Both the position numbers and the translations under genes were made by a program. Source: an uncultured Sphingomonadaceae bacterium (GTDB taxonomy: Bacteria > Pseudomonadota > Alphaproteobacteria > Sphingomonadales > Sphingomonadaceae). Taken from it: a DNA stretch of 64,000 bases. The notes under the pieces were generated by a model. That model searched no databases, was not told where the DNA came from, and saw only the letters and a list, made by a program, of their open reading frames with translations. The stretch spans positions 868,001 to 932,000 of the forward strand of contig CANLQE010000001.1 in NCBI GenBank assembly GCA_947493215.1. Reading direction: 5' to 3'. This document shows, piece after piece, positions 42,968 through 44,960 of this stretch. Position 1 is the first letter of the stretch; every line of letters starts with the position of its first letter.

Positions 42968-43172
42968 TTGTAATCTCCCTTGTTTCGAGAGAGCAAATGG
43001 CGGTAAAGCTTGCGCGCGATAATATCCCATATGGGATAAACGGGCCGATGATTTGGGATCAACCCTGTGATCCATGTCACAATTGCCCTCAAACCGCGCG
43101 ATACCCGTTTACATTAAAGCAATTGCCTGTGCCAACAGACGCGCTATCAGCCACCCACAAGAATGCATTTTA

Positions 43173-44960
43173 ATGCCGACGTCTTTTCAAGCCAGGAGCA
43201 ATTTTTCAGTGAGTCGTGACATCGTCGGACGGGATGAAGATATCGTGAAATTGGCCTATTCGCTGGCTATTGGACCATATCGTTACCGTGAGATGTTCGA
43301 TCTATTGGGCACGCGGCTGGACGATGCATTGACCCGTGCAGAGGAGAAGGCGGCGGCTTCCGGCGCGACTGACCTTGATGAGACTGCGATTCGATCTGCC
43401 TTTGAGCCGCTCGTGCCGCATTTTGAAAATGCCCAATCGTTGATGGAGATGCAGGGCCGTCCGTCGAACAGCGCGAAATATTCCATGAAGATGCTGGATG
43501 CTGACAGCCATCCCTCTGCCTTGATAGGAACCGATGGCCGGATTGTTTATACCAATGGGGCAGCTGCAGAGACATTTGGATTGGCGAACGGCCAGCGCCC
43601 CGATGACGCATTGTTCGAGCGGGGTCATTTCAAAACACTTTTGTCCAACCTACAATCGCTGGACCAGTTTGAATTGAACAAAGTGATCAGCATTTTCGGC
43701 ATGGAGGGTATCGATGGCGCAGAGATGGTCAAAGTGGCGCTGACCAAGGTGCATGATTCGAACGGCAATGCGGTCGGCCATATCTCCGCCATTCACATGA
43801 GCTGGTTTCCCGATGTCGGACAACAGTTTCAATCACTGCTCAACCTGACCCCGGCGGAGCTGGAGATTACCAAAGCCATTGTCACCGGGCTGTCTCTCAG
43901 CGACCTGGCGGCCAAAAGGGGGCGATCCCTTGGTACCGTCCGGCATCAGACCAAGACGCTATTGGCCAAGCTTAATCTGCGATCTCAAACAGAGCTGGCC
44001 TGTCTCTATTCCGGCTTTTCCAAGTTTAATGTAAAAGAGCAGGGGGCGAATAAGGGCGACGGGGTCGGAGCCGGTGGACGAATAGAAAGCCGGGTTTTGT
44101 TGCGGCCCGATAGCCGGGTGCTGGACTATGAACTGGCCGGTCCGGCCAGCGGACATCCGGTGTTGTTCTTTCCCGGCTTGCTCGGCGGGATGACGGTCAC
44201 GGAAGCGATGCACCGCGTGCTGTCTCAGCATAAGTTGCGCTTGATCATGGTCTGGCGCCCGGGTCTGGCCAACAGCGGACCTGACGGTTCTGCGGGGCGC
44301 GACGGCTTTGGCCGCCATGCTGAAGACATAAAAGCATTGCTCGATGAGTTGGGTGTCAAATTCTGTCCTGTTATTGGGCATATTACCGGCGCCATGTTTG
44401 CTTATGCCATCGCTAAACACTTGTCTGGCCGGATTACCGGTGTGGTCAACATCAATGGGATTGTGCCGATGGAGCCGGGACCACATCTTGCGAAAGTCGA
44501 TCGGGCCGAACGGCTGCGCCTATATCTGATGCGCCATTTTCCCAAGATCGGCAGATTTGTTGTTCACGGTGCGTTGGCGAAGGTCGATTCTGGATATGAT
44601 CATGAATATCTCCACGCCTTTTTGGGAGATAATGACCAAGATCAGCGTACGATTGAACGCGAGGATATTCGTATCCTGTTTCGGCAGGCTTTTCAGAAGA
44701 CCACCAAACAAGGCTATGACAGTTTTACCAACGAATTGATGCTGGCAAGCAGCGATTGGCAATATTTGATCGATGATTGTCTATGTCCGGTGCACAATCT
44801 GGTTGGACAGCATAATCTCCATTATACGGCCGATGTGATGCAGGCGTTTGCGGCTGACAGAAGCAACTTTAATGTCGAGATTATCGAGAGCACCGCGCAT
44901 CTGTTGCTCTATCAACAGCCTGATCGCGTATTTGAGGCTGTGGCAGATATGGTTGCTTAG
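43173..44960 (+). CDS. LuxR-type HTH regulator fused to C-terminal alpha/beta-hydrolase-fold domain
   Basis: HTH: LTPAELEITKAIVTGLSLSDLAAKRGRSLGTVRHQTKTLLAKLNLRSQTELACL; hydrolase fold: PVLFFPGLLGGMTVTEAM...VIGHITGAMFAYAIA...ESTAHLLLYQQPDRV. Confidence 0.88.
   Translation: MPTSFQARSNFSVSRDIVGRDEDIVKLAYSLAIGPYRYREMFDLLGTRLDDALTRAEEKAAASGATDLDETAIRSAFEPLVPHFENAQSLMEMQGRPSNSAKYSMKMLDADSHPSALIGTDGRIVYTNGAAAETFGLANGQRPDDALFERGHFKTLLSNLQSLDQFELNKVISIFGMEGIDGAEMVKVALTKVHDSNGNAVGHISAIHMSWFPDVGQQFQSLLNLTPAELEITKAIVTGLSLSDLAAKRGRSLGTVRHQTKTLLAKLNLRSQTELACLYSGFSKFNVKEQGANKGDGVGAGGRIESRVLLRPDSRVLDYELAGPASGHPVLFFPGLLGGMTVTEAMHRVLSQHKLRLIMVWRPGLANSGPDGSAGRDGFGRHAEDIKALLDELGVKFCPVIGHITGAMFAYAIAKHLSGRITGVVNINGIVPMEPGPHLAKVDRAERLRLYLMRHFPKIGRFVVHGALAKVDSGYDHEYLHAFLGDNDQDQRTIEREDIRILFRQAFQKTTKQGYDSFTNELMLASSDWQYLIDDCLCPVHNLVGQHNLHYTADVMQAFAADRSNFNVEIIESTAHLLLYQQPDRVFEAVADMVA

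Follow-up and report, generated by a model that had tools for sequence, protein, structure and literature searches.

In plants, the hydrolase fold is found in a receptor role: the hormone receptors KAI2 and D14 keep the catalytic triad, and GID1 has reportedly lost the catalytic His. In the RsbQ/RsbP-PAS module of Bacillus subtilis and its relatives, an alpha/beta hydrolase (ABH) and a PAS domain serve jointly as the input module for diverse outputs, listed as a phosphatase, a histidine kinase and a diguanylate cyclase, and never as a DNA-binding domain (PMC3183031). RsbQ is a separate protein whose intact Ser96-Asp219-His247 triad is needed for signalling; according to Model 2 of this system, a molecule that enters the hydrolase may give the signal, turnover not being strictly needed (PMC3183031). 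The Streptomyces PAS-LuxR regulators of the PimM type carry PAS and a LuxR-type helix-turn-helix (HTH) in one chain and are mostly pathway-specific; their site is a 16-bp palindrome, CTVGGGAWWTCCCBAG, in the -35 region, and their targets are antibiotic clusters, while the part of that source used here mentions no fused hydrolase domain (PMC9774167). Then, could a hydrolase-fold receptor be fused to both PAS and a DNA-binding domain in a single bacterial protein?

Here, we describe a candidate for such a protein in a 64,000-nucleotide stretch of DNA (the window) from an uncultured Sphingomonadaceae bacterium. The locations of the related features are listed in Table 1. The regulator lies in a single open frame (43074-44960, plus strand). 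The ATG at 43173, taken as the start in the initial annotation, is a possible one and gives 595 residues. The GTG at 43209 (codon 13) has AGGAG upstream, is in frame in the orthologues too and gives 583 residues; it lies 12 codons after the ATG and may be where translation truly begins.

Table 1. Features of the regulator locus, with coordinates in the window.
Feature	Coordinates	Strand	Description or basis
Regulator gene	43173..44960	+	N-terminal helices, PAS, LuxR/NarL-type HTH, triad-less ABH
PAS-like domain, residues 108-209	43494..43799	+	AlphaFold/DSSP strand-helix order; weak Pfam PAS
LuxR/NarL (GerE) HTH, residues 213-285	43809..44027	+	Pfam, genome search, AlphaFold
ABH domain, residues 305-594	44085..44954	+	Pfam, AlphaFold, Foldseek
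Helical cap, about residues 437-511	44481..44705	+	AlphaFold; pairwise omega 0.003-0.05, as low as HTH
Ile404 codon, nucleophile position (GHITG)	44382..44384	+	Sequence, alignments
Asn548 codon, acid (Asp) position	44814..44816	+	Sequence, alignments
His576 codon, retained catalytic-type histidine	44898..44900	+	Sequence, alignments
'sec', divergent linked gene, putatively exported protein of 281 aa	42122..42967	-	Signal-peptide-like start, six invariant Cys
'small', second linked gene, putatively exported protein of 102 aa	41778..42086	-	Three Cys-pair repeats (GSCPxGFKASxxxC)
Candidate operator, perfect 16-bp palindrome TATCCCATATGGGATA	43023..43038		Divergent intergenic region, 7-2-7 layout

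A PAS-like region, a LuxR-type HTH and an alpha/beta hydrolase had been read from the sequence as parts of one chain, and Pfam, AlphaFold and Foldseek agree with this reading. The presence of the three domains thus stands, and the AlphaFold model adds that the HTH is central (213-285 of 595) with the ABH domain after it. In the LuxR/NarL (GerE) family a C-terminal HTH is usual, not universal. The Pfam matches of the regulator, all three below the curated cut-offs, are Abhydrolase_1 (E 1.6e-5), GerE (E 3e-4) and PAS (E 0.12), and GerE, which misses its cut-off here by little, reaches 25.4 bits, above the cut-off, in the genome search. The AlphaFold model has a mean pLDDT of 79; it contains the four-helix HTH of the GerE type and an ABH domain with a helical cap, separated by a linker (286-303) of low confidence, and at 108-209 its strands and helices follow one another as in a PAS fold, for which the Pfam evidence is weak. 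Foldseek gives the ABH 9wlv as the best match, with a TM-score of 0.87 on the target. Within the HTH, T255, R257 and Q259 are invariant in the alignment.

The regulator lacks the Ser-Asp-His triad of catalytic serine hydrolases, and two of its three catalytic residues are lost. The replacement of Ser by Ile, read in the initial annotation from the elbow VIGHITGAM, is borne out by alignment with 9wlv, where Ile404 of G402-H403-I404-T405-G406 falls on the nucleophile Ser (GWSGG). The acid position, which the initial annotation did not mention, is Asn548, with GQHN where GxxD is expected, and P334-G335 stands for the oxyanion 'HG'. His576, which had been read as the remaining catalytic histidine, is confirmed in the alignments. 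No substitute nucleophile is obvious from the sequence, and Thr405, the residue that follows Ile404, is replaced by Ser or Ala in relatives. I404/N548/H576 is shared by all five orthologues from the same genus (78-94% identity), and at these positions two further genera carry V/N/H and I/N/H.

Like RsbQ/RsbP, the regulator has ABH and PAS together, presumably in an input role. However, its PAS, HTH and ABH are encoded in one open frame whereas the RsbQ gene is separate, and it has no intact triad. Because RsbQ stands alone as a protein and depends on its triad, the regulator is not a member of the RsbQ/RsbP-PAS module, although it may work like it. With the Streptomyces PAS-LuxR proteins it shares the chain of PAS and LuxR-type HTH and a 16-bp palindrome, but the conserved linked site, whose binding is predicted, is TRTNCCATATGGNAYA and not the sequence given for the PimM type (PMC9774167). 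Relative to PAS-LuxR regulators, the fused triad-less hydrolase domain would be a new addition. In sequence matches of the HTH, EL222 (E 0.008) and NarL (E 0.17) are found; compared with EL222-like LOV-HTH and NarL-type proteins, the HTH is central here and the input domains differ. GID1, KAI2 and D14 have the hydrolase fold in a receptor role, as proposed for the regulator, but they are separate, partner-recruiting proteins without a fused DNA-binding domain, and none of them is among its listed best structure matches. The closest solved structure by both sequence and fold is 9wlv, a Microlunatus protein annotated as pimeloyl-ACP methyl ester carboxylesterase, which differs in keeping GWSGG and in being a 290-residue chain without PAS or HTH.

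Two divergent genes for Cys-containing proteins, termed 'sec' and 'small', are inherited together with the regulator; both proteins are probably exported to judge from the look of their N termini. No relatives of 'sec' were found in Pfam or PDB, and its AlphaFold model, with a mean pLDDT of 38, permits no claim on the fold. Both genes stay beside the regulator where the remaining neighbourhood differs, and three gene orders occur, namely divergent, regulator-sec-small and sec-small-regulator. 'sec' is present in 13 of 61 relatives, with an ABH-LuxR gene adjacent in all 13. Six of these have a regulator of the window type, while seven have another type that is 27-29% identical and carries R/D/S at the triad positions. 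A wider search added another genus with 'sec' (G784) as well as 11 more genomes from the family, always with an ABH-LuxR gene adjacent. In total, the linkage holds in 25/25 family genomes carrying 'sec', and the palindrome described below lies upstream of 'sec' in the same number; it should be noted for both counts that the genomes are related and do not represent 25 independent events. A chance neighbourhood of regulator and 'sec' was rejected on the basis of the 13/13 adjacency and the further genomes. No Ser-Asp-His triad is present among the 25 'sec'-linked regulators, which form one side of a tree branch with weak support (75/58). There is one exception to the linkage: a genome from another family of the class (G317) has 'sec' without such a regulator nearby and gave no full-length regulator match elsewhere. 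The 14-kb stretch around this 'sec' homologue (L180:2879-3886) contains no ABH-LuxR gene, and no operator-like palindrome is in view.

The candidate operator is located 53-132 nt before the 'sec' start codon in the 25 genomes, and all 25 sites outscore about 2,000 background windows under site models built without each locus's own clade. The core of the palindrome is also conserved in the two further genera with a regulator of the window type, and before 'sec' where the regulator is of other types. Within the genus, 12 carriers have a single genomic site of the strict pattern TNTNCCATATGGNANA, and in the thirteenth (G007) the sequence is TACCCCATATGGTGTA instead. Within the window, the palindrome is the sole match at up to three mismatches, where 0.2 would be expected. 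Where the genes run regulator-sec-small, it is 'sec' and not the regulator that has the site in front of it. The half-sites (TACCCCA) are similar to the NarL heptamer, TACYYMT (PMC4886647). Binding of the palindrome by the regulator is predicted from co-occurrence. Because the palindromic site is conserved and the target gene is linked, control of the linked target at the DNA by the regulator is supported. The linkage of the regulator with 'sec' and 'small' and the candidate operator are new here and go beyond the initial annotation.

Based on these observations, we consider it rather probable that the protein works as a one-component regulator whose hydrolase-fold receptor is non-catalytic and which is dedicated to the neighbouring exported genes. 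A dimer of the LuxR/NarL-type HTH would bind the palindrome and control the divergent pair of 'sec' and 'small', possibly its sole target in the genome. The C-terminal domain would act as the receptor: a small molecule would enter the former active-site cavity, which the conserved cap covers, and alter the contact of the ABH domain with the PAS/HTH part, and DNA binding would change as a result. We infer the existence of the ligand and its binding by cap and cavity; the position of the palindrome is compatible with activation and with repression.

The dead ABH domain is under strong purifying selection, and the cap most of all. L001 and L002 are the orthologues whose synonymous changes are least saturated; in this pair the linker has an omega of 0.65, compared with 0.13 for the ABH domain as a whole and 0.03 each for cap and HTH. 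In the remaining same-genus pairs, too, no part of the domain is as conserved as the cap. Such a cap could be an interface rather than a ligand lid, in which case the ABH domain would be a module for dimerisation or other protein-protein contacts and the signal would come from PAS alone or from a partner protein. The direct contact of RsbQ with the PAS domain of RsbP would fit this arrangement (PMC3183031), as would the free variation of the nucleophile and His positions across the family. However, the regulators of the two types linked to 'sec' (25-29% identity) have diverged much faster than their shared target, as if ligand specificity had changed, which is suggestive only: the identity of 'sec' in the seven genomes with the other type is 62-67% in six and 52% in one. 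Moreover, ABH folds usually keep a cavity suited to a ligand. We regard a pure interface role as possible but unlikely, and the receptor reading is preferred.

Could the ABH domain still be enzymatic, with another residue, water or His576 alone doing the chemistry? ABH enzymes that are not hydrolytic do exist, such as hydroxynitrile lyases and cofactor-free dioxygenases. His576 is kept in the sub-clade of the window and in a few others, so that residual chemistry is conceivable there, and some other members of the family combine a His with Asp or Cys in place of the nucleophile, or have the full triad. However, both nucleophile and acid are lost in the clade of the window, and most of the dead members have Gln, Ser, Glu, Arg and others in place of the His. 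Since the His is lost in other regulators linked to the same targets and with a like operator, the function there does not need a catalytic His. Triad loss is in fact family-wide in the HTH-ABH fusions. Among the 79 fusions tabulated, mostly from Alphaproteobacteria, Ser occupies the nucleophile position in 16 and Ser-Asp-His is complete in four (15/68 and 4/68 for the first 68, and 1/11 and 0/11 for those found later), whereas the stand-alone ABHs from the same searches have Ser in 15/18 and the triad in 13/18; close relatives are included in these counts, which therefore do not represent independent cases. A maximum-likelihood tree, its root not inferred, was computed from the alignment minus the three catalytic columns; in it, a 43-row group that includes the clade of the window contains no Ser-Asp-His (split support 99/96), and the fusions with an intact triad group with the stand-alone enzymes. 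The tree thus answers the phylogenetic check proposed in the initial annotation, the loss being clade-wide. Because Ser and Asp are lost in every orthologue, the loss extends through the clade and the domain is under purifying selection, the reading of a probably dead hydrolase domain within a one-component regulator of LuxR type is well supported at the sequence level, and remaining enzymatic activity appears improbable.

The conserved ATT-rich bases that follow the palindrome, together with the predicted nature of the protein-site binding, leave some room for the palindrome to be bound by another regulator or to be part of the 'sec' core promoter, with the ABH-LuxR gene a mere neighbour. The chance of this is slim, considering the near-perfect symmetry with the 7-2-7 layout and the absence of the strict pattern from the six same-genus genomes that lack the module. 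In addition, similar sites lie beside distant regulators of the same family, next to unrelated genes. Among the 28 distant loci scanned, the best match exceeds 10 bits in 11, all within about 350 nt of the regulator end, compared with 2/12 reaching the 10-bit score in a shuffled-locus control, and in many members no such palindrome was seen. The genes behind some of these sites encode an autotransporter (Parvibaculum), a PEP-CTERM-like, a small exported and a lipase-like protein, and other genes behind them are not evidently exported.

Finally, that the ABH domain is a decaying relic left by gene fusion, as the loss of triad residues might suggest, is highly improbable, since the low omega of the domain (about 0.13) and of the cap (about 0.03) rules out decay, and profile searches find the fusion across the Alphaproteobacteria as well as in one further class of that phylum.

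Members of the family are found in Sphingomonadaceae, Parvibaculum, Rhizobiaceae, Rhodobacteraceae and Hyphomicrobiaceae, and plasmid-borne fusions in Ruegeria, Aliiroseovarius, Paracoccus, Peteryoungia and Tistrella. Where they are annotated at all, it is only as 'LuxR' or 'alpha/beta hydrolase', and no paper on LuxR-ABH pseudoenzyme regulators was found among open-access papers. We tentatively suggest, at somewhat less than even confidence, that these proteins constitute an undescribed large bacterial family, in which a non-catalytic hydrolase-fold ligand receptor is fused to PAS and a DNA-binding domain, with many members wired through 7-2-7 palindromes to an adjacent gene whose product is exported or lies at the surface, and with different small molecules sensed by different members. 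If the receptor reading is true, pseudo-hydrolase receptors arose in bacteria in parallel with the hormone receptors of plants. The family would be open to searches, and it would come with a predicted operator, with target genes and with a cavity that is already defined. The operator with 'sec' would then be a ready reporter for a ligand search. As for the open question of turnover versus binding in RsbQ/RsbP, a domain that is kept although its triad is gone points to binding.

Some further observations were made on individual members. Four HTH-ABH fusions (L037, L078, L079 and L089) have an apparently intact Ser-Asp-His and are possibly active relatives or reversions. Another four (L036, L097, L038 and L077) have Asp at the nucleophile position and keep the His, as in haloalkane dehalogenases and epoxide hydrolases, and may be active or re-purposed. 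Two copies of TACACCATATGGGTGA (L139:7561 and 7843) lie beside an intact-triad fusion and a divergent gene for a PEP-CTERM-type protein. In one genome, two different PAS-HTH-ABH genes, L033 and L049, are arranged in tandem (L135:6922-10647). In addition, a von Willebrand A gene bearing a signal peptide adjoins ABH-LuxR regulators at L138, L140, L097 and L099, in several genera and gene orders and with an exported partner in some loci; this gene is likely a second target module of ABH-LuxR regulators.
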